Shown: positions 47,266 to 62,175 of the stretch, piece after piece | Numbering within the stretch: position 1 is the first letter of the stretch | How the letters are laid out: every line of letters starts with the position of its first letter | Origin: Hydrogenophaga pseudoflava | Lineage (GTDB): Bacteria > Pseudomonadota > Gammaproteobacteria > Burkholderiales > Burkholderiaceae_C | Length of the DNA stretch: 64,000 bases | Assembly: GCF_031020795.1 (NCBI RefSeq) | Contig: NZ_JAVHJP010000003.1 | Location: 117,408 to 181,407 of the forward strand | Reading direction: 5' to 3' | Position numbers and translations under genes: made by a program | The notes under the pieces: generated by a model | Database searches by the model: none | What the model saw: the letters and a program-made list of their open reading frames with translations, nothing else | Told to the model about the DNA's origin: nothing

Positions 47266-49221
47266 TCACGACGCCCCCACGAACTGCCGCACGGTCTGCA
47301 CCAGCCGGGCCGACTGTTGCTGCAGCGAGTCCGCTGCGGCGGCGGCCTGCTCCACGATGGCGGCGTTCTGCTGGGTGTTCTGGTCGAGCTCGCCGATGGC
47401 GTCGGTCACCGAGCGGATGCGCCCGGACTGCTCGCGCGTCACCTGGCTGACCTCGGACAGCAGCTGGTCGACCTGCTGCACGGCGTCGCCCAGGTGGTTC
47501 AGCGAAGCCTCGGCCTGGCGGATCAGCGCCGCCCCGGAGGCCACGCGGTCGACCGAGTCGACAGTGAGCTGGCGGATGTCCTTGGCCGCGGTGGCGCTGC
47601 GCTGCGCCAGCGTGCGCACCTCGCCCGCCACCACGGCGAAGCCGCGTCCCTGGTCGCCGGCCCTGGCCGCCTCGACGGCGGCGTTGAGCGCCAGGATGTT
47701 GGTCTGGAAGGCGATCGAGTCGATCAGGCCGGTGATGTCGGCGATGCGGCGGCTGGACTCGTTGATCTTGTCCATGGCGTCGCGCGTCTCGCGCATCACG
47801 TTCCGGCCGTTGTGGGCCTGCGCGACCGCATCGCGCGCCAGCTGGGCCGCATGGTCGGACGACTCCGCGCTGTGGGCCACGGCGTCGGTGAGTTCGCGCA
47901 TGGCGCTGGCACTCTGCTGCAGGTGCGAGGCCTGCTGCTCGGTGCGCACGGACAGGTCGGCGTTGCCCGTGGCGATCTCGCGCGACGCGTTGGCCACGCC
48001 GCCCGAGACATCGCCCACCTCGCTGAACGCATTGCGCAGCTTGCGCGCAAACCCGTTGAAGCCCTGGGCGATCACGGAGAGTTCGTCGGTGCCCCGCACC
48101 GGCAGCTCGACGCGCAGGTCGGTGCTGCCCGAGGCCAGCCCGTTCATGGTGCCGCCGAGTTCGCGCAGCGGTTTCATGAGCGAGCGCACCAGCAGCGTCA
48201 TGAAGACGGCGGCCAGCGCGCAGGCCACCGCTGCGGCGGCGACGGCGCCATAGAGCTGCTGTTGTGCGGCGGCCGCGGCCAGCGCCAGCGGGTAGGACAC
48301 CACCACGCTCCAGGGGGCCGTGCCCTGCAGCACGGTGACCGGCGTGTACAGGTGGACCCAGCCCCGGCCGTCGTCCCACACATGGTGTTCGCCCTTGGCG
48401 ATGCGGGCCAGCACATCGGCCGGCAGGTCGTCTGCACGCTTGCCCAGCCGGGCCTTGTCCTGCACCGCGAGGTACAGCCCGCCGTTGGACAGCAGCGAGA
48501 CCCGGCCGCCGGGCACGGGTTCGAGTTTGCTCAGTCGTTCGGACAGGTCCGACAGCGGCATGTCGGCCCCCGCGGCGGCGACGAACTTGCCGCCCACCAG
48601 CACCGGCGTGACCATGGTGGTCATGAGCACGTCCTTGCCGGCCACCGGGTAGACATAGGGCTCGATCAGGGCGGGCTTGAGCGTCTTGCGCGGAATCGCG
48701 TACCAGTCGTTCGCACCGTCCTTTTCATAGTCCAGCAGCGGCTCCACCGCGATCTGTCCGCTGCCGCGGTTCCAGTAGGCGATGTAGCGCCCGGTCGCGT
48801 CGTCGGCGGGGCCCTTCTTCACGAACTCCGCGTCCCGGCCGTCGAGGGCGTTCGGCTCCCAGATCGAGTAGGTGCCGATGAACTCGCTGCGCTGGGTCAG
48901 CAGCTGGCGCGCCATGTCGTCGAGCTGCTCGCGGCTGGGCGGGTGGCCGGCGGCCTTCATGCCCTCCATGCTGGCGGCCATGCCGAGCACTGCCGCAAAG
49001 CTGCGGCCGAGTTCTCCACCGACCTGCGCCGCCGCCTGGTCGGCCACCACACGGGCCTGGTCGCCGGCCGCCTGGCGCGCCCGGTCGCTGGCCTGCAGGC
49101 CCACGACGGCGCTGGTGGCGCCCACGCACAGCACACACAGGAGAACGGCGGACAGGCTCAGCTTGGTGGTCAGGGACCAGGCGCCTGGCCGGAACCGGGA
49201 AGACAGGGCGACAGGGGTCAT
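47266..49221 (-). CDS. Methyl-accepting chemotaxis protein with Cache sensor
   Basis: The 651-residue receptor has a membrane helix at about 21-43, a periplasmic Cache-type domain (YIAYWNRGSGQIAVEPLLDYEKD ... DWYAIP) to about residue 320, a second helix, a HAMP domain, and a signalling domain with the hairpin tip NILALNAAVEAARAGDQGRGFAVVAGEVRTLAQRS. No C-terminal NWETF-type pentapeptide is present. Cache domains of this kind often bind amino or organic acids; the ligand is unknown. Confidence 0.92.
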   Translation of the reverse strand: MTPVALSSRFRPGAWSLTTKLSLSAVLLCVLCVGATSAVVGLQASDRARQAAGDQARVVADQAAAQVGGELGRSFAAVLGMAASMEGMKAAGHPPSREQLDDMARQLLTQRSEFIGTYSIWEPNALDGRDAEFVKKGPADDATGRYIAYWNRGSGQIAVEPLLDYEKDGANDWYAIPRKTLKPALIEPYVYPVAGKDVLMTTMVTPVLVGGKFVAAAGADMPLSDLSERLSKLEPVPGGRVSLLSNGGLYLAVQDKARLGKRADDLPADVLARIAKGEHHVWDDGRGWVHLYTPVTVLQGTAPWSVVVSYPLALAAAAAQQQLYGAVAAAAVACALAAVFMTLLVRSLMKPLRELGGTMNGLASGSTDLRVELPVRGTDELSVIAQGFNGFARKLRNAFSEVGDVSGGVANASREIATGNADLSVRTEQQASHLQQSASAMRELTDAVAHSAESSDHAAQLARDAVAQAHNGRNVMRETRDAMDKINESSRRIADITGLIDSIAFQTNILALNAAVEAARAGDQGRGFAVVAGEVRTLAQRSATAAKDIRQLTVDSVDRVASGAALIRQAEASLNHLGDAVQQVDQLLSEVSQVTREQSGRIRSVTDAIGELDQNTQQNAAIVEQAAAAADSLQQQSARLVQTVRQFVGAS

Positions 49222-49328
49222 GGCGGTGGTTTTCTGAAGGTGACAAAGGGGCTGTTGCCACTATCGGACACACCCTGGAATACTGAAGCGCCGATCAACG
49301 GCGCAAGAACCGCCCTGTTTGCGCCAGA

Positions 49329-50024
49329 TCAAGTTGCGAGGCGCTGCAACAGCCAGGCGTTGAGGTCGGTGATCTCGTCCATGCACACCTCGTGCCCCAT
49401 GGGGTAGGACCGCCAGTCCACCGGATACCCCAGGGCCGCCAGGGTGTCGCGCGCCGCCGCTCCGCGCGCCGGCACCACGATGTCGTCGGCGTCGCCATGC
49501 GCCATGAACACCGGCACCCCGCGGCTTTCCTTGCTGGCCTCGGCCGCCGTGCGCGAAGCCAGCGGCAGGTAGCCCGACAGCGCCACCAGGCCCGCCAGCC
49601 GCTGCGGCGCACGCAGGCCGGCCAGCAGGGTCATGGCGCAGCCCTGCGAGAAGCCCATGAGCACGGTGCGAGCCGGTGGCACACCACGCTGCGCCTCGCG
49701 GTCCAGCAGCTGCTGCACGATGGCCTGGCTCTCGCGCAGGCCCGCCTCGTCCTCGAGCCGCGGCAGCGACGGGTCGCTGCTGGGCGGAAAGATGTCGTAC
49801 CAGGCGCGCATCCGATAGCCGCCGTTGATCGTCACCGGCCGCACCGGCGCGCTGGGGAAGACGAAGCGCACCGGGCCGACGGCCGACAAGTCCATGGCCT
49901 GGGCCACGGGCACGAAGTCGCGGCCGTCGGCGCCCAGGCCGTGCAGCACCACGATGCTGGCCACCGGCCGGGCGTCCGGGTCGCCGCCGGTGGTGAATTC
50001 GATGAGTTCGATGGAGGTGGTCAT
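49329..50024 (-). CDS. Carboxylesterase/phospholipase family hydrolase (copy 2)
   Basis: A 231-residue paralogue of the gene on the other side of the chemoreceptor: HGLGADGRDF, GFSQGCAM, HGDADDIVV and PMGHEVCMDEI occupy equivalent places. Both copies lie on the same strand. The substrate is unknown. Confidence 0.87.
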   Translation of the reverse strand: MTTSIELIEFTTGGDPDARPVASIVVLHGLGADGRDFVPVAQAMDLSAVGPVRFVFPSAPVRPVTINGGYRMRAWYDIFPPSSDPSLPRLEDEAGLRESQAIVQQLLDREAQRGVPPARTVLMGFSQGCAMTLLAGLRAPQRLAGLVALSGYLPLASRTAAEASKESRGVPVFMAHGDADDIVVPARGAAARDTLAALGYPVDWRSYPMGHEVCMDEITDLNAWLLQRLAT

Positions 50025-50053
50025 GCGGCCAGCATAGCGCCGGCCGGCGCCGC

Positions 50054-50707
50054 TCAGGCCTCCAGCCCCAGCAGGCGCCGGGCCATCCCGAACGACGCCG
50101 CCGGCTGAAGCACGTCGAAGTGCACCACCTGCATGCCGGCCTTCACCCCGCCGTCGGCGTTGCGCTTCTGGTCGTCCACGAACACACATTCCCCGGCCGG
50201 CAGGCCCAGCGCTGCGGTCACGGCCGCGTAGGCGCGCGGGTCGGGCTTGAGGATGCCGGTGTAGGTCGCGTCCACGACCACGTCGAACAGCTGCAGCAGC
50301 GGCAGGCGGCGGCGGAAGTCGGCGCCGTAGAACAGGTCCAGCTCGTTGGAGAGGATGGCGAGTTTTTTGCCGGCCGCTTTCGCCGCGTGAATGATGGACA
50401 CCGCCTCGGGCCGGATCACCGCCTCGACGTCGGCGCCGCGCGCGCGCTGCACGAAGGTTTCCATGCGGTCCCAGTCTTCGCCCAGCAGCCGGCCGACCTC
50501 GCGCGTGCGGGTCATCCAGTAGTCGCGCTCGCTGAGCTGGTCGGCCTGCATGGCCTGCCAGAGCGGGTCGGTGGCCGGGTCGAACGGGCCCCTCCACGTC
50601 AGGGTGCCGGGCTTCAGGCCCAGGGCCTGTTCCGACAGATCGTGCGTCTCGAACAGCATGCGGCTGACGACGCCGCCGAAGTCGAGCACCAGGGCCTTGG
50701 CTGTCAT
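50054..50707 (-). CDS. HAD family hydrolase
   Basis: 217 residues with HAD motif I DFGGVV (Asp9), motif II SNEL, the lysine in LKPDPRAY and motif IV FVDDQKRN. The IA subfamily with a helical cap, like epoxide-hydrolase N-terminal or phosphatase-type HADs. The ATG overlaps the stop of the UPF0261 gene, so it belongs to the same operon; it could clear a phosphorylated intermediate. Activity unknown. Confidence 0.85.
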   Translation of the reverse strand: MTAKALVLDFGGVVSRMLFETHDLSEQALGLKPGTLTWRGPFDPATDPLWQAMQADQLSERDYWMTRTREVGRLLGEDWDRMETFVQRARGADVEAVIRPEAVSIIHAAKAAGKKLAILSNELDLFYGADFRRRLPLLQLFDVVVDATYTGILKPDPRAYAAVTAALGLPAGECVFVDDQKRNADGGVKAGMQVVHFDVLQPAASFGMARRLLGLEA

Positions 50708-51990
50708 GCGGCTTTCCTTTCTTCGACTGCATCGACCACACCGGCAGGCACCAGGCCAGCGGCCACCCAGCCATCGAACACGCGCAGCGCGGCCTGGGCG
50801 AACGCTTCGTCGTTGATGTGTGCATCCACCGGCTGGAACACCGTGTCGGGCGACACCACATGGACCATCTCGTCGGTGAAGGCCTTCAGGCCCTCGGGGT
50901 CGTGCAGCGGCTCGCCCGGCCGGTCCCACTGCTCGACGCCGCCCGTGGGCAGCAGCAGGCAGGTGGGCCCGGTGGCCTGCTCCAGCCGGTCGGCGAGGGC
51001 GCGCGCCACATGGCGGCGCATCTCGGGGTCGATGCAGACCGAGGCGATCAGGCGGTTGTGCTCGTGCACCGAGCGGCCGATGAACTGCTCCGGGCAGCGC
51101 GTCCAGGCCGGGAAGTCGACCATGTCGGTCGCGCCGGGCGCCACGATCTGCGGCACGCCCGCGCGGCCCGCGCCCAGCAGGCGCTCGCTGCCCGCGCTCA
51201 CGCAGCTGCCCGCCAGATCGTTCACCAGTTCCTGCAGGCTGAAGTCCATCACCGCGGCGAAGTAGCCGCGCCGCGCCAGGTCTTCGAACGCCCGCCCGCC
51301 CATGCCGGTGGTGTGGAACACCGCCAGTTCGTAGCCACGCGCCTCCAGCGCCGGCTTGAGCTTCTTCATGTAGGACAGCGCGCTGCTGCCCAGCGAGGTC
51401 ATGCCGATCACGGGGCGCGGATCGGGCTCGGCCGCGCGCGCCTGGCAGGCACCCAACACCGCACCGGCCGCCTGGCCCAGCGCCGCCTTGCACAGGCGGT
51501 TCAACCCATACAGGCCGCCGGCCCAGAGCCGCATGATCAGGTCCGGCGGGATGCGGTCGGGTGGGATCAGCGGCGAGTACGCGATGGTGGACAGCACCAC
51601 CTTCGGGCAGCCCATGGGCAGCGCGTTCGCCACGTCCAGCGCCAGGTCGGTGCCCATCGTGCCGCCCAGGGCCAGCATGCCGTCGAAACGGCCTTCGACG
51701 TACCACCGGGTCGCGATCAGCGCGGCGCCGGTGGCCATCAGCTTCATCGAGGTGTTCTCGTCGCCGGTCTCCATCACCTGCTGCAGCGTCACGCCCGCAG
51801 CGGCCGCCACCTCGGTGTTGAGAACGTCGGGAGTGAAGCCGCCCTGGCCCAGCACGCCCACGTCCATCACCAGCGCGGTGCCGCCCAGGTGTTCGACCGA
51901 TTCGCGCAGGTAGGCGATCTCGTCGCTCTTGGTGTCGACCGTGCCGATCAGCAGGATGACCGGCGGGCGGCCGGCGTGGGTGGGGCTCAC
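50704..51990 (-). CDS. Tm-1-like / UPF0261 ATP-binding protein
   Basis: The 428-residue protein matches the UPF0261 family (N-terminal LLIGTVDTKSDEIAYLR, GGTMGTDLALDVANALPMG, C-terminal EQFIGRSVHEHNRLIASVC and GGVEQWD). The N-terminal part is related to the plant Tm-1 virus-resistance protein. Bacterial function is unknown, though such genes often sit in catabolic operons. It starts with GTG overlapping the aminotransferase stop. Confidence 0.85.
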   Translation of the reverse strand: MSPTHAGRPPVILLIGTVDTKSDEIAYLRESVEHLGGTALVMDVGVLGQGGFTPDVLNTEVAAAAGVTLQQVMETGDENTSMKLMATGAALIATRWYVEGRFDGMLALGGTMGTDLALDVANALPMGCPKVVLSTIAYSPLIPPDRIPPDLIMRLWAGGLYGLNRLCKAALGQAAGAVLGACQARAAEPDPRPVIGMTSLGSSALSYMKKLKPALEARGYELAVFHTTGMGGRAFEDLARRGYFAAVMDFSLQELVNDLAGSCVSAGSERLLGAGRAGVPQIVAPGATDMVDFPAWTRCPEQFIGRSVHEHNRLIASVCIDPEMRRHVARALADRLEQATGPTCLLLPTGGVEQWDRPGEPLHDPEGLKAFTDEMVHVVSPDTVFQPVDAHINDEAFAQAALRVFDGWVAAGLVPAGVVDAVEERKAA

Positions 51991-53351
51991 AGGCTGGCCT
52001 CCACGGCGGCGAACGACGCTTCCAGCACGTCGCAGAGGTGGTTCACTTCGTCCAGCGAAATCACCAGCGGCGGCGAGAGGATGAGGTTGGGACCGGAGAT
52101 GCGCACCATCAGGCCGCGCCGGTAGGCCTCCTTGGCCACGCGGGCCGGGATGTCGCTGCTGCGCGGCATGGGGGTGCGCAGGGCCTTGTCGTCCACCATC
52201 TCGATGCCCAGCATCAGACCGACGCCGCGCACGTTGCCGACGAAGCTGCAGCTCTGTTCGAGCTTGCGCAGGCGCTCCTGCATCACCGCGCCCACGCGAC
52301 CGGCGTGGCCCGGCACGTCCAGCGCCGCGATCTGGTCCAGCGTGGCCAGCGCGGCGGCGGCGGCCACCGGGTGGGCGCTGTAGGTGTAGCCGTGGCCCAC
52401 GGCCGCCTGGCCGCTCTTGTCGTCGTTGAACACCTGGGCGACCTTGGCCGAGATCGCCGTCGCGCCCAGCGGCACATAACCCGAGCTGATGCCCTTGGCC
52501 AGGCACCACAGGTCGGCGTTCACGCCCCACAGGCGGGTGCCGAACAGATGCCCGGTGCGGCCGAAGCCGGTGACCACCTCGTCGGCGATCAGCAGCACGC
52601 CGTATTTGTCGCAGATCCGGCGCACCAGCGGCCAGTAGTTGGCCGGCGGCACGATCACGCCGCCCGCACCTTGCACCGGCTCTGCAATGAAGGCCGCCAC
52701 GGTGTCCGGGCCCTGGAACACGATCTCGCGCTCCAGCAGCTCGGCGCAGATCTCGCCCAGCTCCAGCGGGTCGCTGGTGTAGGGGTTGCGGTAGAGCCAG
52801 GGCGTGTCGATGTGGAAGCAGCCCGGCAGCAGCGGCTCGTAGGCGCGGCGGAAGTTGGTGTTGCCGTTGACGCTCATGCCGCCGAAGTGCACGCCGTGGT
52901 AGCCCTGGCGCAGGCTGATGAACTTGAAGCGGTCCTTCTCGCCGCGCAGCTTGTGGTACTGGCGCGCCAGCTTGAGCGCGGTCTCCACCGCGTCCGAGCC
53001 GCCGCTGGAGAACATGACGCTGGCCACGCCGTCGGGCTCCATCATCTTCACCAGGCGGGCCGAGAGTTCGATGGCGCGCGGGTGCGAGGTGCCGCGGAAG
53101 GTGTTGTAGAAGGGCAGCTCGTCGAGCTGCGCCACGATGGCGTCGCGCACCGCGGTGGCGCTGTGGCCGAGGTTGCTGGCCCAGAGGCCGCCCACGCCGT
53201 CGAGCATCCTGTGGCCGTCCACGTCCCAGATCCAGCAGCCTTCGCCGCGCGCGACGATGTCGGGCTTGGCCTTCTTCATGGCCGCCGGATGGGCCATGGG
53301 GTGCCACTGGTATTCGGCGTTGTCCTGTTTGAGTTGTTCGGTGGTGCTCAT
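51987..53351 (-). CDS. Class III PLP aminotransferase (omega-amino acid type)
   Basis: The 454-residue fold-type I enzyme has GGLWASNLGHS, SSGGSDAVETALKLAR, the cofactor aspartate in ADEVVTGFGRTG and the Schiff-base lysine in LAKGISSGYVPLG. The pattern resembles omega-amino acid:pyruvate transaminases. It lies 14 bp after the aldehyde dehydrogenase gene, so it may make the aldehyde the dehydrogenase oxidises, or handle the next amine. Amine donor unknown. Confidence 0.88.
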   Translation of the reverse strand: MSTTEQLKQDNAEYQWHPMAHPAAMKKAKPDIVARGEGCWIWDVDGHRMLDGVGGLWASNLGHSATAVRDAIVAQLDELPFYNTFRGTSHPRAIELSARLVKMMEPDGVASVMFSSGGSDAVETALKLARQYHKLRGEKDRFKFISLRQGYHGVHFGGMSVNGNTNFRRAYEPLLPGCFHIDTPWLYRNPYTSDPLELGEICAELLEREIVFQGPDTVAAFIAEPVQGAGGVIVPPANYWPLVRRICDKYGVLLIADEVVTGFGRTGHLFGTRLWGVNADLWCLAKGISSGYVPLGATAISAKVAQVFNDDKSGQAAVGHGYTYSAHPVAAAAALATLDQIAALDVPGHAGRVGAVMQERLRKLEQSCSFVGNVRGVGLMLGIEMVDDKALRTPMPRSSDIPARVAKEAYRRGLMVRISGPNLILSPPLVISLDEVNHLCDVLEASFAAVEASL

Positions 53352-53365
53352 GGTTGCTCCCGGGT

Positions 53366-54826
53366 TCAGAACGGTTGGCCGATGGTCACGGTCTTGACCT
53401 CGGTGTAATGGGTGATGCCTTCGGCGCCCTGCTCCTGGCCGAGGCCGCTTTCCTTGTGGCCGCCGAAGGGCAGCTCGGGCTGCGAGACACCGAAGTGGTT
53501 GATGCCGACCATGCCCGCCTCGATGCCTTCACCCAGGCGGTGGGCGGTGTGCAGGTCGCGCGTGAAGGCGTAGGCGCCGAGCGCATAGGGCAGCGCGTTG
53601 GCCTGCTCGATGGCGGCGTCCAGCGTGTCGTAGGGCTGGACCACGGCGATGGGACCGAAGGGCTCCTGCTGCATCACGCGGCTGCTGGCGGGTGCGTCGG
53701 CGAACACCGTCGGTTCGAAGAAGAAGCCGGGCCGCGCCACCCGCTGGCCGCCGGTGAGCAGGCGCGCGCCCTGGCCCACGGCGTCGTCCACGAAGCGTTC
53801 CATGTCCTCGATGCGGCGCGCGTGGGTCAGCGGGCCCATCTGCGTGGCAGCCTCCAGGCCCGACCCGAGCTGCAGCTGCTGCGCGGCGGCGGCAAAACGC
53901 TCGCCGAATACACCGAGCTGCGCGCGCGGCACGTAGAAGCGGATCGGCGAGGCGCAGACCTGGCCGGCGTTGCGGTACTTGGCGGCCACCGACTGCTTGA
54001 GCACGAAGTCCAGGCCAGCGCCTTCCGCCATGTCCTCGGCCACGATCACCGGCGCGTGGCCGCCCAGCTCGCCGGTGAAGCGCTTGACGTGGCGCGCGGC
54101 CTGCTCGCCCAGCAGCTTGCCCACGGCCACCGAGCCGGTGACCGAGACCTTGGCGATTTCGGGCCGCTCGATCAGGAAGGACGAGACCTGCGCCGGGTCG
54201 CCCCACACCAGGTTGATCGCGTCGGCGGGCACACCCGCATCCAGGAAACACCGCACCAGCAGCATCGCGCTGCCCGGCGTTTCTTCGGCCGGCTTGAGCA
54301 CCACGCTGCAACCCGCCGCCAGCGCGCTGCCCAGCTTGCGGCTCGGCAGGTTGACCGGGAAGTTCCAGGGCGTGAACGCGGCCACCGGGCCCACCGGCAC
54401 GCGCTGCACGGTGTGCGAGAGGATGCCGTCGACACGCGGCGCGACGGCGCGGCCGTAAAGGCGTTTGCCCTCCTCGGCCTGGAAATCGATGATGTCGGCC
54501 GAGAGCAGCACCTCGCGCTTCGCCTCGGTGAGGGTCTTGCCCTGTTCGAGCGTGAGCACGGTGGCGATCTCACCCGCGCGCTGGCGCAGCAGTTCGGCCG
54601 CGCGGCGCAGGACGACGTAGCGCTCGTGCGGGCGCACGCGGCGCCATTGTTCGAAGCCGCGGCGGGCCGACTCGGCGGCGGCGGCCAGCTCGGCCGGGCC
54701 GGCGAGCGGCAGCGTGGCGAGCACGCTTGCATCGGCGGGATTGACAACGGCGCGTTCGCCGCCCGAGGCCTGGGACAGCCACTGGCCGGCCACGTGCAGG
54801 GAGAGGGTTGGGTAGGAAGAACTCAT
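53366..54826 (-). CDS. NAD(P)-dependent aldehyde dehydrogenase, succinate-semialdehyde (GabD) type
   Basis: The 486-residue ALDH has PWNFPVNLPSRKLGSALAAG, the catalytic Glu in GELGGHAP and the catalytic Cys in NAGQVCASP. It matches the GabD group, but in this locus the true substrate may be another semialdehyde such as 2-aminoadipate semialdehyde or a simple aldehyde from phospho-lyase action. First gene of the minus-strand arm; a regulatory motif lies 33 bp upstream. Confidence 0.88.
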   Translation of the reverse strand: MSSSYPTLSLHVAGQWLSQASGGERAVVNPADASVLATLPLAGPAELAAAAESARRGFEQWRRVRPHERYVVLRRAAELLRQRAGEIATVLTLEQGKTLTEAKREVLLSADIIDFQAEEGKRLYGRAVAPRVDGILSHTVQRVPVGPVAAFTPWNFPVNLPSRKLGSALAAGCSVVLKPAEETPGSAMLLVRCFLDAGVPADAINLVWGDPAQVSSFLIERPEIAKVSVTGSVAVGKLLGEQAARHVKRFTGELGGHAPVIVAEDMAEGAGLDFVLKQSVAAKYRNAGQVCASPIRFYVPRAQLGVFGERFAAAAQQLQLGSGLEAATQMGPLTHARRIEDMERFVDDAVGQGARLLTGGQRVARPGFFFEPTVFADAPASSRVMQQEPFGPIAVVQPYDTLDAAIEQANALPYALGAYAFTRDLHTAHRLGEGIEAGMVGINHFGVSQPELPFGGHKESGLGQEQGAEGITHYTEVKTVTIGQPF

Positions 54827-54859
54827 GCCGGGCACTGTGCCGGCCTACCCCTTCACCAC

Positions 54860-54898
54860 GTGATCGGAAATGCGCAAAGTGGGGTTACGGGTTTACCC
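54860..54898 (-). promoter_or_regulatory. Candidate EutR-like regulator site in front of the aldehyde dehydrogenase
   Basis: On the minus strand GGGTAAACCCG is followed by TGCGCATTTCCGATCAC. The same two blocks, GGG-n-AAACCCG and TGCGCANTTNNGATNAC, recur with the same 39-bp total span at 55973-56011 in front of the divergent permease. Two such composites flanking an AraC-type gene suggest its binding sites. Confidence 0.6.
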
Positions 54899-54945
54899 TG
54901 AACACACGCCACTCTGCTGCGGCAGGCGAGGTGCACCCAAGGAAA

Positions 54946-55941
54946 TCAGCCCTTCGACTTCCGGGCCCGCGCCAGCGTCTCCGACGGCAGCTCGAAAAAG
55001 TGCTTCTTGTAGTCGAGCGAAAACTGCCCCAGGTGCCAGAAGCCCCAGCGCGCCGCCACGTCCTGCACCGTCGAGCCCGCTGCCGCTTCGCGCAGCCCGC
55101 GCCGCACCCCGTTGAGTCGCAAGGCCCGCAGGTACTGCGTGGGCGACGTGCCCAGCACATCCTGGAAGCAGTAGTTCAGCTTGCGCCGGCTCGCCCCCAC
55201 GCGGCTGCATACATCCAGGATCGAGGGCGGCTCGTCGGGGTTGGCCATCATCAGTTCGCAGGCCTTGTCCACCATGCGCTTGCGCCGCGCCAGCGAGTCC
55301 AGGTCGGAGGTGTCCACGCTCGGCGGCAGCGCCTCGATCCACTCGATCAGGATGTCGTCGCGCAGCTGGTTCAGCGCCGAGGGCTCATTGAAATGCTGCG
55401 CCAGCGCCAGCGCCTCCTTCAGCGCCTGCAGGTGCTTGCCGCGCAAGGCGGCGCTGCTCTCGGGCGTGGGCAGCAGCTCCATCTGCCGCTCCAGCCAGCT
55501 GGCCAGCGGCTTCTGGTACATGTGCTCCCACAGCGGATTGAGCAGGCTGCGCTCCACCGTCAGCGCGATCAGGTGGTGCTGCGCCGGCGTGACGAAGTCG
55601 ATCTCGCGTCCGCTGCCGCAGAGGATGGCGTCGGGGTGGACCTTGCGGCCGTCGAAGTACACGTCCCCGGTGGGCGCCACCGACATCGCGAACCCGTAGA
55701 CCTGCTCGCCCAGCCGGCCGCGCTGGCGCAGCGCCAGGCTGGTCTTCTCTTCGGTCAGGCGCACGCCGACCAGCTGCACCAGGGACAGTTCGCCACGAAA
55801 GCGCCCGCTGGAGAGCTGCTCGTAATGCAGCGACCAGTCGCCCTGCGCCATGGCGTGGGCATCCATGTCGAAGGTCAGCAGGGACTGGGCCCAGGCGGGC
55901 GCGGGTGCGTCTTCGGGGGCCTCGGCGGCGGGGTCGCTCAT
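54946..55941 (-). CDS. AraC family regulator, EutR-like
   Basis: The 331-residue protein has a ligand domain (1-210) and a C-terminal AraC helix-turn-helix pair (about 222-320). Its PSILDVCSRVGASRRKLNYCF and RWGFWHLGQFSLDYKKHF segments closely follow the pattern of E. coli EutR, the ethanolamine-utilisation activator. That places it with the FeaR/EutR branch sensing small amines. It is central to a divergent catabolic locus and likely activates both arms. Confidence 0.87.
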   Translation of the reverse strand: MSDPAAEAPEDAPAPAWAQSLLTFDMDAHAMAQGDWSLHYEQLSSGRFRGELSLVQLVGVRLTEEKTSLALRQRGRLGEQVYGFAMSVAPTGDVYFDGRKVHPDAILCGSGREIDFVTPAQHHLIALTVERSLLNPLWEHMYQKPLASWLERQMELLPTPESSAALRGKHLQALKEALALAQHFNEPSALNQLRDDILIEWIEALPPSVDTSDLDSLARRKRMVDKACELMMANPDEPPSILDVCSRVGASRRKLNYCFQDVLGTSPTQYLRALRLNGVRRGLREAAAGSTVQDVAARWGFWHLGQFSLDYKKHFFELPSETLARARKSKG

Positions 55942-55972
55942 GGCGCGCAGCGTAGCAGCAGCGGGGGTGATT

Positions 55973-56011
55973 GGGACAAACCCGGACCACATCGTGCGCA
56001 GTTTTGATAAC
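55973..56011 (+). promoter_or_regulatory. Candidate EutR-like regulator site in front of the permease operon
   Basis: GGGACAAACCCG (55973-55984) and TGCGCAGTTTTGATAAC (55995-56011) mirror the composite before the aldehyde dehydrogenase. A TAGCAT at 56031-56036 could be the -10 of the permease operon, 90 bp upstream of its ATG. Confidence 0.6.
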
Positions 56012-56100
56012 CCGTTCGGCGGCCCGTCCCTAGCATCCCGTCCACCCTGGCCCCCAAGGCCGGAGGCACGGATACACCGACACAACGACGAGGAACAGCC

Positions 56101-57621
56101 ATGAACACCGCTTCCACTTCACTTTCATCGTCCGGGCCCGCCCCGGGCGCCGAACAGTCCCTGCGATCCGGCCGCCTGGGGGTGATCGGCATCGTCTTTT
56201 TCGTGGTCGCCGCCGCCTCGCCGCTGGTGGGCATGACCGGCGCGCTGCCCGCCGCCATCCTGCTGGGCAACGGCGCCGCGGCGCCCGGCGCCTACCTGCT
56301 GGCCGGCCTCACCCTGCTGCTGTTCAGCGTGGGCTACGCCGCCATGAGCCACCAGGTCACCAACTCCGGTGCGTTCTTCGCCTACATCGGTCGCGGCATG
56401 GGCCTGCACCTGGGCGTGGGGTCGGCTTTCGTCTCGCTGCTGGCCTACCTCGCCATCCACCTGTCCATCTTCGGCTTCTTCGGCGGGCTGATGGCCGAGC
56501 AGGTGGGCGGCTTGCCCTGGTGGGGCTGGTCGCTCATCGCCTGGGTCGCGGTGACCTGGCTGTCGCTGCGCAGCGTCGACGTGGGTGCGCATGTGCTGGG
56601 CCTGCTGCTAGGGCTGGAGCTGCTGGTGCTGGTGATCACCACGGTGGCCATCCTGATGCAGGGCGGCCCCGAAGGCTGGAACTTCGCCGCCTCCTTCAGC
56701 CCGTCCAACATCCTGGCCGGCGGTCTGGCGGGGTCGGCGGGCATCGCGCTGGCGTTCGCATTCGCCTCCTTCGTCGGCTTCGAGGCCACCGCCATCTACG
56801 GCGAAGAGTCGATCGACCCCAAGCGCACGGTGCCGCTGGCCACCTACGTGGCCGTGCTGTTCATCACCGTGCTGTTCGCCAGCACCACCTTCGCCGTGGT
56901 GACCGGCCTGGGTTCGGGCAAGGTGATGGACCGCGTGGTCGAACTCTCGTCCGTCGATGGCGCACCCCTCGTCAATCCGGCCAACGTGCTGTTCACGCTG
57001 GCGAGCCAGTACGTGGGCGACTGGCTGGCGGCCATGATGAAGAGCCTGGTGCTCTCCAGCCTGTTCGCCGCCATGCTGGCGTTCCAGAACTCGGCCGCGC
57101 GCTACCTGTTTGCACTGGGTCGCGGCGGCACCCTGCCGGCCGCCCTGGCCAGGGTCAACGGCCGCGGCGCCCCGTCGGCGGGTTCCGTCACCGTGTCGGT
57201 GATCACGCTGGCCGTGATCGCGACCTTTGCGCGGGCCGGCCTGGACCCCATCCTCAACATGTTCTTCTGGTTCTCCGGTCTGGCGGTAGTGGCCATCCTG
57301 CTGATCGAGATCCTGGTGTGCGTCGCGGTGATCGCCTGGTTCCGCCGCGTGCCCGGCGACTCGAACCTCTTCCAGTCGCTGATCGCGCCGGCGCTGGCGA
57401 TCGCCGGCCTGTCGGTGGGCCTGTACCTGCTGATGGCGCGCTTCGGCCTGCTGACCGGTGCCGTGGCCGAGGGCCTGGACCCGACCACGACCTCCTGGGC
57501 CATGAACGGCCTGGGCTGGTTCATGGCGCTGCTGCCCTTCGGCGTGCTGGTGGTGGGCTACTTCTTCGCCATCGCCCGCCACAAGGAGAACAAGGAACTG
57601 ATCCAGGACGTGATCTCCTGA
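56101..57621 (+). CDS. APC family amino acid/amine permease
   Basis: The 506-residue inner-membrane protein has about 12 helices and the APC features GVIGIVFFVVAAASPL in helix 1 and FAFASFVGFEATAIYGEE in helix 6. The group includes amine and amino-acid importers. It heads the plus-strand arm next to the EutR-like gene, so it likely imports the locus substrate. Confidence 0.9.
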   Translation: MNTASTSLSSSGPAPGAEQSLRSGRLGVIGIVFFVVAAASPLVGMTGALPAAILLGNGAAAPGAYLLAGLTLLLFSVGYAAMSHQVTNSGAFFAYIGRGMGLHLGVGSAFVSLLAYLAIHLSIFGFFGGLMAEQVGGLPWWGWSLIAWVAVTWLSLRSVDVGAHVLGLLLGLELLVLVITTVAILMQGGPEGWNFAASFSPSNILAGGLAGSAGIALAFAFASFVGFEATAIYGEESIDPKRTVPLATYVAVLFITVLFASTTFAVVTGLGSGKVMDRVVELSSVDGAPLVNPANVLFTLASQYVGDWLAAMMKSLVLSSLFAAMLAFQNSAARYLFALGRGGTLPAALARVNGRGAPSAGSVTVSVITLAVIATFARAGLDPILNMFFWFSGLAVVAILLIEILVCVAVIAWFRRVPGDSNLFQSLIAPALAIAGLSVGLYLLMARFGLLTGAVAEGLDPTTTSWAMNGLGWFMALLPFGVLVVGYFFAIARHKENKELIQDVIS

Positions 57622-57652
57622 CGCCGCGACCACGCCTGCACGGACCTCTGAC

Positions 57653-58936
57653 ATGAACGACAACGAACTGGTGGAGAAGCGGCGGGCGCTGCTCGGCCCC
57701 AACGTCTCCACCTTCTACCGCCGGCCGGTCCACATCGTCCGGGGTGAGGATGTGTGGCTCTGGGACGCGGACGGCCGCCGCTACCTGGACTGCTACAACA
57801 ACGTGCCCCACGTCGGCCACTGCAACCCGCGGGTGGTCGAAGCGATCTGCGCGCAGAGCCGCCAGCTCAACGTGCACAGCCGCTACCTGCACGAGAACCT
57901 GCCGGACTATGCGGAGCAGCTGACCGCCACCTTTGGCGGCGGACTCTGCAACGCCCTGCTCACCTGCACCGGCTCCGAGGCCAACGACATCGCGCTGCGC
58001 ATGGCCGAGGCCATGACCGGCAAGCGCGGGATCATCGCCACCGACGCCACCTACCACGGCAACACCAGCCTGGTGAGCCAACTGTCGACCAGCAATGCGC
58101 CGACATACGGCTACGGGCTGGGCCAGTACGTGCGCCATGTCGAAGCGCCCGACAGCCTGCGCATTCCCGACCCCCAGGGGCTGCGCTTTGCGGCCAAGGT
58201 GCAGGAGCAGATCGACGCGCTGGAGCGCTCGGGCGTCGGCTTTGCGGCGCTGATCGTGTGCCCGCTGTTCCTCAACGAGGGTTTCCCCACCCAGGCCCCG
58301 GGCTGGTTGCGCCCCGCCGAGCAGGTGGTCCGCCAGGCCGGCGGCTTGCTGATCTGCGACGAGGTGCAGTCGGGTTTTGCGCGCAGCGGCAGCCATTTCT
58401 GGGCGCACCAGAAGCAGGGCGTGACGCCCGACATGGTGACCATGGGCAAACCCATGGGCAATGGCTACCCGGTGGCGGGCCTGGTGACCCGGCCGGAGGT
58501 GATGGCGCGCTTCCGCAACTCCTACCGCTACTTCAACACCTTCGGCGGCAACCCCGTGGCCTGCGCCGCCGCAATGGCGGTGCTGGAAGAAATCGGGCAG
58601 CGCCAGCTGCAGGCGAACGCCGCGAAGATCGGCGCCCTGGCCGCGCAAGCGCTGCGCGGGCTGGCGTCGAAGCACCCTGTGATCGGCGATGTGCGCCAGA
58701 GCGGCATGGTGTTTGGCGTGGAGTTCGTGAAGGACCATGCCACGCTGGCGCCGGCGACCGAGGTGGCCGAACAGGTGGTGGAGGCCATGCGCGAGCGCGG
58801 TGTGCTGCTGTCCAGGCTGGGCCGGCACAAGAACACCCTCAAGATCCGCCCGCCGATGACCTTCTCCGAAGAGCACCTGGGCCTGCTCATGCAGACGCTG
58901 GACGAGGTGCTGGCCGAGCTGGCGACACAGCCATGA
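57653..58936 (+). CDS. Class III PLP enzyme, AGXT2L-type phospho-lyase candidate
   Basis: The 427-residue fold-type I enzyme has DCYNNVPHVGHCNP, CTGSEANDIALRMA, CDEVQSGFARSG and the Schiff-base lysine in TMGKPMGNGYPVAG. The GKPMGNG form, in place of the AKG of true aminotransferases, is the pattern of AGXT2L1/AGXT2L2, which eliminate phosphate and ammonia from phosphoethanolamine or 5-phosphohydroxylysine. An adjoining kinase supports a phospho-lyase role. Annotation as an aminotransferase is the conservative alternative. Confidence 0.8.
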   Translation: MNDNELVEKRRALLGPNVSTFYRRPVHIVRGEDVWLWDADGRRYLDCYNNVPHVGHCNPRVVEAICAQSRQLNVHSRYLHENLPDYAEQLTATFGGGLCNALLTCTGSEANDIALRMAEAMTGKRGIIATDATYHGNTSLVSQLSTSNAPTYGYGLGQYVRHVEAPDSLRIPDPQGLRFAAKVQEQIDALERSGVGFAALIVCPLFLNEGFPTQAPGWLRPAEQVVRQAGGLLICDEVQSGFARSGSHFWAHQKQGVTPDMVTMGKPMGNGYPVAGLVTRPEVMARFRNSYRYFNTFGGNPVACAAAMAVLEEIGQRQLQANAAKIGALAAQALRGLASKHPVIGDVRQSGMVFGVEFVKDHATLAPATEVAEQVVEAMRERGVLLSRLGRHKNTLKIRPPMTFSEEHLGLLMQTLDEVLAELATQP

Positions 58937-59883
58937 CGGACCTTGCCCAGCGGGCGGCCGCCGCCTGGGGCCTCGCCCACGCACGCCTGCGGTTCGTGGC
59001 AGGCCGGGAGAACCAGGTCCACCGGGTCACCGTCGCATCAGCCGGCCACTATGCCCTGCGCATCAAGCGGCCCGGCTACCGCAGCCGGGCCGAACTCGCT
59101 TCCGAACTGCAGTGGATGGCGGCGCTGGCCCAGGCCGGCCTGCTGGTCCCCCGGCCCGTGCCCTCGCTGGCAGGCCGGCTGCTCGAAGAAGTGGACGGCC
59201 ACCAGGTGGACCTGCTCACCTGGCTGCCCGGCCAGACCCTGGGCGCGGCGCTGCAGGAAGACCCGGCGCCCGACCCCGCCCCCCTGTTCCACGCGCTGGG
59301 CCAGCAGATGGCCCGGCTGCACGCCGCCTCGGACGCGTGGATCCCGCCGGCGGACTTCACGCGGGTGCGCTGGGACGCCGAAGGCCTGCTGGGCGAAGCG
59401 CCGGTCTGGGGCCGCTTCTGGGAACACCCGGCCCTGTCCGCCGACGACCGGCGCCTGTTCGTGCAGGTCCGGTCCGCGGCGCGGCACGAGCTGCAGCGCC
59501 TGCAGGACCGTCTCGACTTCGGCCTCATCCACGCCGACCTGGTGCGCGAGAACGTGCTGCTGCACGGCGAGCGCATCGGCCTGCTGGATTTCGACGATGG
59601 CGGCTGGGGCTACCGCGTCTTCGATCTGGCCACCACCCTGCTCAAGTTCACCGGCGCGCCCGGCTATCCGGTGATCCAGCGCGCCCTGCTGCGCGGCTAC
59701 CAGGCCGTGCGCCCGCTGGACACGGCCACGCTCGACCTCTTCCTGGCCCTGCGCGCCCTGACCTACGTCGGCTGGGTCGTGCCCCGCCTGGCCGAAGACG
59801 GCGCGCAGGCGCGCAGCCAGCGCTACATGGCCACGGCCCGCGAGGTCTGCGAGCGCTGGCTGTCGGGGCCGCCCGCCCCTTGA
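58933..59883 (+). CDS. APH-fold small-molecule kinase (hydroxylysine/ethanolamine kinase-like)
   Basis: 316 residues with the aminoglycoside/choline kinase motifs LIHADLVRENVLL (catalytic Asp and metal Asn) and LLDFDDGGWG (metal Asp); HYALRIKRPG holds the ATP lysine. It overlaps the phospho-lyase gene by ATGA. Human AGPHD1, a hydroxylysine kinase, has the same fold and pairs functionally with AGXT2L2, so this kinase probably makes the phospho-lyase substrate. A resistance kinase is unlikely in this setting. Confidence 0.78.
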   Translation: MTDLAQRAAAAWGLAHARLRFVAGRENQVHRVTVASAGHYALRIKRPGYRSRAELASELQWMAALAQAGLLVPRPVPSLAGRLLEEVDGHQVDLLTWLPGQTLGAALQEDPAPDPAPLFHALGQQMARLHAASDAWIPPADFTRVRWDAEGLLGEAPVWGRFWEHPALSADDRRLFVQVRSAARHELQRLQDRLDFGLIHADLVRENVLLHGERIGLLDFDDGGWGYRVFDLATTLLKFTGAPGYPVIQRALLRGYQAVRPLDTATLDLFLALRALTYVGWVVPRLAEDGAQARSQRYMATAREVCERWLSGPPAP

Positions 59884-59999
59884 TCCAGGTCAGGGCCCAC
59901 TCCAAAACTGGAGCGCAAGCTCTAGAAAACACGCGGGAAAGCCCGCTGCCCGGCCCCTGGCCCGGCCCGGTAGATTCCGGCATTCACCTGGAGACCCGC

Positions 60000-61688
60000 A
60001 TGACCAAGATTGCCGCCGAACACCTCGCCCTGCAACGCCTGTACCACTGGGAGAAGACCACCCCGTCGCGGGTGGCCCTCACCCAGCCCATGGGCGCCGG
60101 CGCGGTGCAGGATTTCACCTGGGCCCAGGTGGCCGACCACAGCCGGCGCATGGCCGCGCACCTGAAGGCGCAGGGCTGGGCGCCCGGCAGCAAGGTGGCC
60201 ATCCTGTCCAAGAACTGCGCCTGGTGGATGATGAGCGACCTGGCGATCTGGATGGCCGGCTATGTCTCGGTGCCGCTGTACCCGACGCTGGCGCCCGAGA
60301 CCATCGCCCAGATCCTGAACCACAGCGAGTCCAAGGCCCTGTTCGTCGGCAAGCTCGACGGCTGGGACCACATGAAGCCCGGCGTGCCGGCCGGCCTGCC
60401 CTGCATGAGCTACCCGCTCTCGCCCGACGACGCCAAGCAGGCCTACGAGGGCTGGGACGCCATCGTGGCGCGCACCGCGCCCATGAAGGAATCGCCCGTT
60501 CGCGGCGAGGACGAGCTGGCCACCCTCATCTACACCTCGGGCACCACCGGCCTGCCCAAGGGCGTGATGCACAGCTTCGGCAACTTCGCCTGGGCGCTGG
60601 ACCGCGGCCTCCAGCGCATCCCGCTGACCCAGGACGACCGCATGCTGTCCTACCTGCCGCTGGCCCACGTGGTCGAGCGTATGCTGGTCGAACACGGCTG
60701 GCTGCGCACGGCCATGCACGTCTACTTCGCCGAGTCGCTGGACACCTTCACCGCCGACCTGCAGCGCGCCCGCCCCACGGTGTTCTTCTCGGTGCCGCGC
60801 CTGTGGGTCAAGTTCCAGCAGGGCATCCACCACAAGATGCCGCCGGCCAAGCTGAACCGGCTGCTGGGCATCCCGCTCATCGGCGGCCTGGTGCGCAAGA
60901 AGATCCGCAAGGCCCTGGGCCTGGACCAGTGCCGCTTCGCCGCGGGTGGTGCGGCGCCCATGCCGCTGGCGCTGCTGGAGTGGTACGGCCAGCTGGGCAT
61001 CGCCATCAACGAAGGCTACGGCATGACCGAGAACCTCGCGCTCTCGCACATCACCGAGGCCGGCAAGAACCAGCGCGGCACCGTCGGCCCGACCTACCCC
61101 GACGTGCAGCAGCGCATCGACCCCGAGACCGGCGAGGTCCAGATGAAGAGCCAGGCGCTGATGATGGGCTACTACAAGGAGCCCGAGAAGTCCGCCGAGG
61201 TGTTCACCGCCGACGGCTGGCTCAAGACCGGGGACAAGGGGCAACTCGACGCGCAGGGCATGCTGCGCATCACCGGCCGGGTGAAGGACCTGTTCAAAAC
61301 GGGCAAGGGCAAGTACGTCGCGCCGGCGCCGATCGAGGACAAACTGGTGATGCATGAGGCCATCGAGGCCTGCGTGGTCACCGGCGCCAACCTCGGCCAG
61401 CCGCTGGGCATCGCCATGCTCAACGCCGACGCGGTGGCCCAGTCGGCCAGCGCCGAAGGCCGCGGCGCGCTGGAGGCTTCGCTGGCAGCCCACCTCAAGG
61501 CCATCAACGCCACCCTGGACCCGCACGAACGGCTGCAGTGCCTGGTGGTGACCACCACCGCCTGGACCGTGGACAACGACGTGATCACACCCACCTTCAA
61601 AGTCAAGCGCAACCGCATCGAAGACCTCTACGCGAAACACTACGAGGCCTGGGAGGAATCGGGCAAGCCCGTGCTCTGGCAGAGCTGA
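60000..61688 (+). CDS. AMP-dependent acyl-CoA synthetase/ligase
   Basis: The 562-residue adenylate-forming enzyme has the P-loop YTSGTTGLPKGV, NEGYGMTE, the acyl-AMP aspartate in WLKTGDKG, and FKVKRNRIED near the C-terminus with a catalytic Lys. LYPTLAPETI and the overall length match the long-chain acyl-CoA synthetase FadD15-like group. The ATG follows a GGAGA site. No other lipid genes are adjacent. Chain preference unknown. Confidence 0.9.
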   Translation: MTKIAAEHLALQRLYHWEKTTPSRVALTQPMGAGAVQDFTWAQVADHSRRMAAHLKAQGWAPGSKVAILSKNCAWWMMSDLAIWMAGYVSVPLYPTLAPETIAQILNHSESKALFVGKLDGWDHMKPGVPAGLPCMSYPLSPDDAKQAYEGWDAIVARTAPMKESPVRGEDELATLIYTSGTTGLPKGVMHSFGNFAWALDRGLQRIPLTQDDRMLSYLPLAHVVERMLVEHGWLRTAMHVYFAESLDTFTADLQRARPTVFFSVPRLWVKFQQGIHHKMPPAKLNRLLGIPLIGGLVRKKIRKALGLDQCRFAAGGAAPMPLALLEWYGQLGIAINEGYGMTENLALSHITEAGKNQRGTVGPTYPDVQQRIDPETGEVQMKSQALMMGYYKEPEKSAEVFTADGWLKTGDKGQLDAQGMLRITGRVKDLFKTGKGKYVAPAPIEDKLVMHEAIEACVVTGANLGQPLGIAMLNADAVAQSASAEGRGALEASLAAHLKAINATLDPHERLQCLVVTTTAWTVDNDVITPTFKVKRNRIEDLYAKHYEAWEESGKPVLWQS

Positions 61689-61713
61689 GAAAAAATCGGG
61701 GCGGGCGGGGAAT

Positions 61714-61759
61714 AAACCGGTCCGGCGCGGTGTTTACCGTCTGCCAACCGGTTTTTTTT
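61714..61759 (+). terminator. Intrinsic terminator/attenuator upstream of the lipoprotein gene
   Basis: AAACCGG (61714-61720) pairs with CCGGTTT (61748-61754), with an inner CGGT/ACCG stem, and ends in eight T residues. It terminates the ligase gene. The T-run is only 23 bp before the next ATG, so transcripts of that gene from any upstream promoter must pass through it. Confidence 0.75.
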
Positions 61760-61782
61760 CATTCCCTTTCCAGGAGTTCACC

Positions 61783-62175
61783 ATGTCCCGATTCGCTTCC
61801 CTCCGCACCGCCGCCCTGCTGGTGCTCGGCGCCGCCAGCCTGATCGGCTGTGCCGGCACCCCGGCCGCACCCGGCGGCGTCATGGCCCGCGACGGCCTGC
61901 TCGCCGGCCCGAACGGCATGACGCTCTACACCTTCGACCGCGACACCGCCGGCAGCGGCAAGAGCGTCTGCAACGGTCCCTGCGCCACCAACTGGCCGCC
62001 GCTGATGGCCGGCAGCGCCAGCCCGTCGGGCGACTACAGCGTCGTGACGCGGGACGACGGCGGCAAGCAGCTGGCCTACAAGGGCAAGCCGCTGTACTAC
62101 TGGGCCAAGGACAGCAAGCCGGGTGACAAGACCGGCGACGGCTTCAACGGCGTCTGGCGCGTCGCGGCGCCCTGA
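61783..62175 (+). CDS. Secreted-repeat (COG4315) lipoprotein
   Basis: 130 residues with a lipoprotein signal and lipobox LIGC (Cys about 23), so it is anchored in the cell envelope. Two short repeats of the secreted-repeat family follow (LYTFDRDTAGSGKSVCNGPCATNWPPL and LYYWAKDSKPGDKTG, each with a Y-x-aromatic core and D). Function unknown. It is 9 bp ahead of an ECF sigma factor gene. Confidence 0.87.
   Translation: MSRFASLRTAALLVLGAASLIGCAGTPAAPGGVMARDGLLAGPNGMTLYTFDRDTAGSGKSVCNGPCATNWPPLMAGSASPSGDYSVVTRDDGGKQLAYKGKPLYYWAKDSKPGDKTGDGFNGVWRVAAP

Follow-up and report, generated by a model that had tools for sequence, protein, structure and literature searches.

A candidate kinase and phospho-lyase module for beta-hydroxylated arylethylamines in Hydrogenophaga pseudoflava

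Results

A probable catabolic module for aromatic amines

A 64,000-nucleotide stretch of the Hydrogenophaga pseudoflava genome (the window) contains, at positions 50054-59883, two divergent operons arranged around an AraC-family regulator. The operon on the forward strand encodes an APC-family permease, a class III pyridoxal phosphate (PLP) enzyme predicted to be a phospho-lyase, and an APH-fold kinase. The reverse-strand operon encodes an aldehyde dehydrogenase (ALDH), a class III aminotransferase, a UPF0261/Tm-1-like protein, and a HAD hydrolase. Our analysis indicates that this locus is probably a catabolic module for beta-hydroxylated arylethylamines, the candidate substrates being octopamine and noradrenaline, synephrine and adrenaline after N-demethylation, and possibly phenylethanolamine. 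We infer each reaction and the exact substrate from what was observed, namely the identities of the genes, their neighbourhood, the linkage to homoprotocatechuate (hpa) genes in relatives, and an hpa cluster in the host.

In the proposed route, the amine would be imported by the APC permease, and the kinase would use ATP to phosphorylate its side-chain (benzylic) hydroxyl group. The PLP enzyme would then eliminate phosphate, and the enamine would collapse to an arylacetaldehyde and ammonia. Enzymes of class III are able to expel a beta-phosphate from a primary amine, with hydrolysis of the enamine to aldehyde and ammonia. Oxidation by the ALDH would result in 4-hydroxy- or 3,4-dihydroxyphenylacetate, whose ring would be cleaved by the homoprotocatechuate pathway, encoded elsewhere in the host genome. 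The aminotransferase may serve the same role for non-hydroxylated amines such as tyramine and dopamine. An aromatic beta-hydroxy-phenethylamine is suggested as substrate because hpa genes are the recurrent pathway neighbours of the module: octopamine and noradrenaline would yield 4-hydroxy- and 3,4-dihydroxyphenylacetaldehyde and then the acids, and thus the input consumed by hpa genes. Ethanolamine and hydroxylysine are disfavoured, since neither would call for hpa or paa neighbours.

The phospho-lyase and the kinase

Comparison of the PLP enzyme (57653-58936, forward strand; PF00202, 265 bits) with solved structures by phmmer resulted in 366 bits for the 5g4i phospholyase and 329 bits for the 6tor ethanolamine-phosphate phospho-lyase, as against 184 bits for the best aminotransferase; on these scores, the reading as a plain transaminase was rejected. 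The signature TMGKPMGNG occupies residues 263-271, and K266, which we take to be the PLP-binding lysine, was kept in at least 97% of 128 aligned rows. The NCBIfam PbfA model was matched with 210 bits (cut-off 525). Clade-specific residues of the alignment, which include T133, P204, N208, E209, F211, P212, and R288, may line the substrate pocket. AlphaFold predicted the lyase structure with low confidence (pLDDT 60), and this model was set aside.

For the kinase (58933-59883, forward strand; PF01636), 6ef6, titled an aminopropanol kinase, was the best match by both sequence and fold, and this structural match suggests that an amino alcohol is phosphorylated. Residues H200, D202, N207, and D219-F-D-D222 were invariant among 13 aligned kinases; they correspond to HxDxxxxN and DFD, the defining motifs of APH-fold kinases. 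The gene is rare in the family of the window, with carriers in only 3 out of 250 genomes at E <= 1e-40, the host itself counted and one of the three (G209) being an incomplete genome with the gene on a 3.8 kb contig. Altogether, the matches to 5g4i and 6tor for the lyase and to 6ef6 for the kinase support the proposal, made in a previous sequence-only reading of this DNA, of an amine kinase feeding an O-phosphate phospho-lyase.

A single gene of about 1000 residues, whose C-terminal part is homologous to the lyase, was observed on pSymB of S. meliloti (L167; CP140959.1, 4264-7290). The NCBIfam model PRK06148 (1015 positions) matches the window kinase and lyase alike, below its cut-off. From this gene and this model, it follows that kinase-lyase fusions probably exist.

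Linkage to homoprotocatechuate genes

A protein search with the lyase, in which 8000 candidates were scored, returned Hydrogenophaga-named proteins among its 120 listed matches; the list further included proteins 74-79% identical with names from Rhodobacteraceae, Rhizobiales, and one Variovorax. Clusters of this type occur repeatedly in Alphaproteobacteria. On genome contigs, 586 loci were confirmed, the best 80 of which (lyase 56-76% identical) form the related set analyzed here, and 32 loci of distant paralogues (lyase 45-51% identical) were taken as control set.

At least two hpa structural genes were found within the flanks of 22 of the 80 related loci and of none of the 32 control loci, a comparison that favours the related loci because the controls are shorter (13-14.5 kb, as against up to 21 kb with flanks of up to 10 kb). 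Linkage was observed in 19 of the 58 related loci that are at least 20 kb long. The recurrent neighbours are hpaR, F, E, D, G, H, and I, sometimes with hpaBC, that is, genes for homoprotocatechuate and 4-hydroxyphenylacetate degradation. Within the whole related set, a PF00282-type decarboxylase was present in 10 loci, HpaB in 5, and HpaC in 6.

Several loci illustrate this arrangement. In L139 (lyase 72% identical), a single strand carries ALDH, UPF0261, hpaF, E, D, G, H, lyase, and kinase in succession, the neighbours either overlapping or separated by short gaps. In L138 (74%), hpaB, hpaC, and two other genes precede an ALDH-APC pair, followed by IclR-UPF0261-HAD-aminotransferase-lyase-kinase and then by hpaR and hpaFEDGHI. 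The lyase also lies among hpa genes in L041, which starts at the lyase, and in L045, both lacking the aminotransferase in the stretch examined. On annotated plasmids of Agrobacterium (L095) and Shinella (L096), hpa genes adjoin the cluster; in L095, HpaR, HpaE, HpaD, HpaH, and HpaI exceeded the NCBIfam cut-offs and HpaG fell under its own. The Ruegeria conchae locus (L098) has hpaR.

The linkage was also quantified across genomes as the presence of HpaH (TIGR02312) within 25 kb of the lyase, one distance being used for all loci. Of 295 genomes in family f55 and 199 in family f51 (494 altogether), all 147 in which the lyase was matched at E <= 1e-112 were included. We take f55 to be Rhodobacteraceae, as the lyases of G818 and L014 (R. 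calidifons) are identical, and f51 to be Rhizobiaceae, as the places in G1044 and in Sinorhizobium sojae begin at the same base. HpaH, counted at E <= 1e-85 with a few cases just under the curated cut-off (including G885, one of the 20 linked close loci), was found within this distance of 20 of 43 close lyase loci (f55 at 62% identity or more, 10/24; f51 at 55% or more, 10/19), 3 of 62 intermediate loci (f55 at 55-61%), and 1 of 64 distant loci below 55% (1/29 plus 0/35). These identity bands were drawn after the first linkage results had been seen; for all loci at 55% or more, the values are 23/105 vs 1/64. The loci share descent and are therefore not independent, and the Fisher tests take no account of this kinship. 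In a quick tree, the window lyase was placed in a clade of 17 rows (support 100), 3 of them hpa-linked, nested in a clade of 51 rows (support 99), 14 of them hpa-linked; the control locus L136 fell in the large clade on a long branch. The HpaH counts indicate that the linkage is strong in the lyase clade of the window and in a rhizobial clade, and weak between them.

Lyase-kinase pairs were also observed in the distant paralogues L163, L164, and L165 (46-49% identical), together with ABC transporters and SDR oxidoreductases; aromatic genes were absent from the annotation of their 6 kb flanks. These pairs probably represent other amino-alcohol routes.

Conservation and identity of the divergent half

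Besides the kinase (76/80), the related loci contained UPF0261 (54/80), the aminotransferase at 45% identity or more (47/80), HAD (27/80), an IclR regulator (54/80), and an ALDH of the a, b, c, or d type at 60% or more (50/80). Among the controls, the kinase was present in 4 out of 32 loci, and UPF0261, aminotransferase, HAD, IclR, and ALDH in none. The genes of the cluster appear in several orders and orientations, and in rhizobial loci they are contiguous on the same strand. Since UPF0261, aminotransferase, and HAD recur in this way and were missing from the controls, the divergent half can be assigned to the module of the kinase and lyase, as the sequence-only reading had assumed. In the genus mate G208, the order synthetase, kinase, lyase, permease, regulator, ALDH, aminotransferase, UPF0261, HAD is the same as in the window. 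This conserved order, along with the reshuffled recurrence of the set in relatives, argues for a gene set beyond chance.

All the genes that had been named for positions 50054-59883 are present as long open frames, and their kinds agree with Pfam and NCBIfam; two of the finer labels required correction. The first is that of the regulator (54946-55941, reverse strand; PF12833), described as EutR-like: EutR (NF007522) is indeed its best NCBIfam model, but 147 bits lie far under the cut-off of 319 and the label was overstated. Likewise, the permease (56101-57621, forward strand; PF00324, 74 bits) scored 43 bits with the ethanolamine permease model TIGR00908 (cut-off 382), and with both proteins so far under these cut-offs an ethanolamine/EutR reading was rejected. 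The permease shares 38-41% identity with its APC counterpart in rhizobial loci. Between the starts of regulator and permease lies the predicted divergent control region (55942-56100).

The second label, a GabD-type dehydrogenase, is valid for the ALDH (53366-54826, reverse strand; PF00171) at superfamily level only, because it reached 424 bits with the succinic semialdehyde dehydrogenase (SSADH) model TIGR01780 (cut-off 646) and 375 bits with NF008415 (cut-off 828). No cut-off was reached among the listed NCBIfam models, and the best solved matches were 9zh8 and 5x5t (alpha-ketoglutaric semialdehyde dehydrogenase). Oxidation of arylacetaldehydes is the predicted role, and the enzyme could act on succinic semialdehyde instead. 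The aminotransferase (51987-53351, reverse strand) belongs to the PRK07481 group (NF005683, 702 bits; cut-off 575), has the omega-transaminase 5lh9 as best solved match, and possibly acts on arylethylamines. The UPF0261 protein (50704-51990, reverse strand; PF06792 and PF23189) has 9mpy and Tm-1 3wry as solved relatives, and the HAD-IA hydrolase (50054-50707, reverse strand; PF00702 and TIGR01509 above cut-off) has an 86% identical counterpart in G208. As conserved partners of the cluster, these two proteins appear to be dedicated accessory proteins.

Capacity of the host

In the host genome (G000), HpaE, HpaD_Fe, HpaH, HpaI, and HpaR were recognized over NCBIfam cut-offs and HpaG by BLAST. 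The five genes over the cut-offs are confined to a single strand and to about 9 kb of contig C18, the window being on contig C16. Judged by its genes, the host would be able to cleave homoprotocatechuate. In three genomes of the genus, host included, neither a TIGR02295-type HpaD nor homogentisate dioxygenase (hmgA) was matched; for HpaD, such an empty answer is no proof of absence.

The 5g4i branch and hints of N-demethylation

The 5g4i phospholyase, presumably UniProt A1RDF1, is encoded by AAur_pTC20101 on plasmid pTC2 of Paenarthrobacter aurescens TC1 and is 42% identical to the window lyase. Next to its gene are a kinase annotated as homoserine kinase (38% identical to that of the window) and an amino acid permease (36%), and further neighbours include two ALDHs (one annotated maoB/feaB phenylacetaldehyde dehydrogenase), SSADH, hpaI, a hydratase, and hpaE. 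The enzyme is active on O-phosphoethanolamine, which may not be its physiological substrate. The plasmid carrying this gene (L159/L161; CP000476.1, 93130-108860) was typed as conjugative.

A 5g4i-type lyase is also found in Mesorhizobium AR07, a strain from Oxytropis nodules (L160; NZ_CP080526.1, 7477-19221), flanked by an APC permease on one side and by a kinase (40% identical to that of the window) on the other, with paaX/pcaF/paaABCDE/paaZ after the kinase, which suggests phenylethanolamine as substrate at this locus. The Phyllobacterium counterpart is likewise accompanied by an APC permease and a related kinase, and genes annotated as tyramine oxidase and ALDH lie nearby. The 5g4i, Mesorhizobium, and Phyllobacterium lyases form a clade of their own apart from that of the window (support 98, in a quick tree and on a long branch). 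As this clade also adjoins hpa or paa genes, a tie to arylacetate catabolism is seen in two branches of the lyase family.

An FAD/GcvT-like protein of about 820 residues, matching ThiO and GcvT models below their cut-offs, accompanies the lyase and kinase in 11 of the 80 related loci (L023, L025, L027, L028, L035, L037, L038, and L055-L058) at 70% identity or more to a query that itself came from one of them; L077 was just under 70%. In S. fredii NXT3 (L166; NZ_CP024308.1, 275-12141), genes for ETF and ETF-QO, folD, and purU lie between HAD-aminotransferase and permease-lyase-kinase. An N-demethylating flavoenzyme could accordingly form part of the route, which would fit N-methylated substrates such as synephrine and adrenaline.

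Gene junctions and neighbouring genes

Start codons were picked among candidates, and UPF0261 was given a GTG start that overlaps the aminotransferase stop. With the starts chosen, 4-base overlaps occur at three junctions: lyase/kinase, aminotransferase/UPF0261, and UPF0261/HAD. Rfam gave zero matches over window positions 49000-62000.

An AMP-binding acyl-CoA synthetase (60000-61688, forward strand; PF00501) begins 116 bases downstream of the kinase, and its membership in the pathway is uncertain: it adjoins the kinase in G208 too (79% identical), and just 25-27% matches were found, in two of the 80 related loci. A carboxylesterase (49329-50024) was dropped as a member, having no match beside HAD in G208 at E 1e-12. 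Near the cluster, a gene partial as read (63513-63968, reverse strand) resembles S-formylglutathione hydrolase (234 bits for the part seen; cut-off 282), and a similar gene adjoins the synthetase on the opposite strand in G208 (L012, 7768-8604). Elsewhere in the window are a bioA-type class III aminotransferase (12114-13412, forward strand; TIGR00508 over cut-off), which bears no relation to the cluster, and an amidohydrolase (45003-46451, forward strand; PF01979), possibly a guanine/8-oxoguanine deaminase, beside a LysR gene (44096-45001).

Discussion

Evidence against an aromatic substrate

Several observations weigh against an aromatic beta-hydroxylated amine as substrate. A neighbourhood cannot by itself fix a substrate, and none of the ten window genes examined (49329-61688) is an hpa gene, the other window genes being partly unannotated. 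No hpa genes were found in the flanks of the first eight listed loci (L013-L020, lyase 72-76% identical) or in the annotated regions around the clusters of Leisingera L093 and R. pomeroyi DSS-3 L094. The R. pomeroyi cluster comprises the aminotransferase SPO_RS21615, the lyase SPO_RS21625, the kinase SPO_RS21630, and the UPF0261 protein SPO_RS21635. The intermediate f55 loci are scarcely linked, and one distant locus, G870 (54%), is linked as well. The ALDHs of the alphaproteobacterial loci are only 31-39% identical to that of the window and are not its orthologues. TctC, of the tripartite tricarboxylate transporters, which are better known for carboxylates, occurs in 41 of the 80 related loci, many of them alphaproteobacterial.

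The host genome raises further points. HpaF was not recognized in its hpa cluster. The genus mate G114, which has no close kinase match, also has HpaE, so that hpa alone is not diagnostic. The host has a PaaK equivalog, and a phenyl substrate is therefore possible. It lacks PF03241 HpaB, so that either a different hydroxylase would be needed for 4-hydroxyphenylacetate or a catechol would be the substrate. The lack of HpaB does not settle the matter, since the hydroxylase proposed for B. xenovorans LB400 is only distantly related to E. coli HpaB, according to PMC3053370.

Alternative substrates

The sequence-only reading had favoured hydroxylysine or an amino alcohol. The recurrence of homoprotocatechuate and 4-hydroxyphenylacetate genes around the module speaks against both hydroxylysine and an aliphatic amino alcohol, the latter being the stronger of the two alternatives. 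Here the kinase and lyase would act on ethanolamine or 1-amino-2-propanol and the ALDH would oxidize the aldehyde; the hpa linkage would come from the aminotransferase and ALDH acting on tyramine or dopamine, or from a general clustering of amine catabolism. The names of the solved relatives (phospholyase, ethanolamine-phosphate phospho-lyase, and aminopropanol kinase) agree with it, and so does EutR as best model of the regulator, though below cut-off. On the contrary, the low regulator and permease scores described above do not. Furthermore, L139, L041, and L045 have the lyase directly amid hpa genes (L139 and L041 together with the kinase) in stretches where no aminotransferase was found, and the hpa linkage is concentrated in the lyase clades of the window and the rhizobia, with hardly any among paralogues, some of them in the same genomes. 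We consider this alternative unlikely.

In a second alternative, the substrate would be an amino acid or diamine that carries a hydroxyl group beta to its amine, for example 4-amino-3-hydroxybutyrate or 2-hydroxyputrescine, and would provide succinic semialdehyde or 4-aminobutyraldehyde for the ALDH. This would suit an ALDH nearest to SSADH and alpha-ketoglutaric semialdehyde dehydrogenases, and the Tct transporters of relatives suggest a carboxylate. Yet the ALDH, at 31-39% identity to the others, is not conserved with the module, and hpaBC and hpaR/FEDGHI flanking the cluster, as well as the paa-linked relative, would be left unexplained. In the LB400 study (PMC3053370), the hpa route ends with a succinic semialdehyde dehydrogenase, Sad, and this could explain an SSADH nearby. 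Altogether, we regard such a substrate as very improbable.

There is a similarly slight chance that the ALDH-aminotransferase-UPF0261-HAD half is a separate operon merely adjoining the kinase and lyase. Its opposite strand and an ALDH unlike those of other loci would be in line with this, but UPF0261, aminotransferase, and HAD accompany the module in varied orders and are missing from the controls, and in the rhizobial loci the genes are contiguous on one strand. Hydroxylysine degradation, in which the kinase and a PHYKPL-like lyase would give aminoadipate semialdehyde, the ALDH 2-aminoadipate, and the aminotransferase 2-oxoadipate, is the least probable of all: it shares its chemistry with the mammalian HYKK/AGXT2L2 pair and could use the semialdehyde-type ALDH and the aminotransferase, but that aminotransferase belongs to an omega-amine group, no lysine or aminoadipate gene was recognized among the identified neighbours (host 2-oxoadipate genes were not searched), and aromatic genes recur.

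Significance of a route for aromatic amines

The balance of these data favours a module for beta-hydroxylated arylethylamines. A wider proposal, to which we give even chances, is that of a widespread, horizontally moved proteobacterial pathway, with a related set in Arthrobacter, channelling signalling amines of invertebrate and plant type (octopamine, noradrenaline, and N-methylated forms) to homoprotocatechuate or phenylacetate through ATP-dependent side-chain phosphorylation and PLP-dependent phosphate elimination, in which 5g4i would be an aryl-ethanolamine-phosphate lyase and UPF0261 would be dedicated to aromatic amine catabolism. The combination of kinase and phospho-lyase is of a kind already known. 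An aromatic-amine version, with a kinase/phospho-lyase route for octopamine-type amines, was not found in the open-licence literature, which leaves most subscription journals outside. Octopamine, synephrine, and tyramine are not mentioned in the main text of the Arthrobacter Rue61a genome paper (PMC3534580).

If the proposal is correct, neurotransmitter-like aromatic amines would join the small substrate set of class III PLP lyases, and there would be a gene-level candidate for bacterial breakdown of octopamine and synephrine. The 5g4i phospholyase would gain a physiological setting and the uncharacterized UPF0261 family a pathway. The route would also bear on the microbial use of host signalling amines on animals and plants, and it is testable in cultured, sequenced marine and soil bacteria.

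Comparison with known systems

In the human AGXT2L1 (ETNPPL) and HYKK/AGXT2L2 systems, a phospho-lyase likewise acts on an O-phosphate, which for hydroxylysine is first made by a kinase. The lyase substrates are phosphoethanolamine and phosphohydroxylysine, which nothing at the window locus indicates except homology. The 6ef6 aminopropanol kinase is associated by its title with an aliphatic amino alcohol and a bacterial microcompartment, whereas the window-type loci have aromatic-catabolism neighbours. Synephrine dehydratase of Arthrobacter (EC 4.2.1.88) performs the same net conversion as proposed here, from a beta-hydroxyarylethylamine to 4-hydroxyphenylacetaldehyde, but by a dehydration that releases methylamine; no paper on this enzyme was found in the open-licence literature searched.

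The predicted sink of the route is the homoprotocatechuate pathway, whose published entry, in the available part of PMC3053370, is by 4-hydroxyphenylacetate hydroxylase; the open-licence literature searched gave no report of an entry through a kinase and a phospho-lyase. Class III PLP lyases are discussed in the available part of PMC8154272, and PbfA, the (R)-1-hydroxy-2-aminoethylphosphonate ammonia-lyase, is a member that converts a beta-hydroxy amine to aldehyde and ammonia, like the proposed lyase, but with no kinase step described in that part. The 5g4i system differs in that UPF0261, HAD, and the second aminotransferase are not annotated in the stretches examined, and its lyase forms a separate clade. 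On the other hand, the 5g4i phospholyase belongs to the same class III PLP subgroup as the window lyase, and its gene likewise has for neighbours a kinase and a permease related to those of the window, along with ALDHs and hpa genes.

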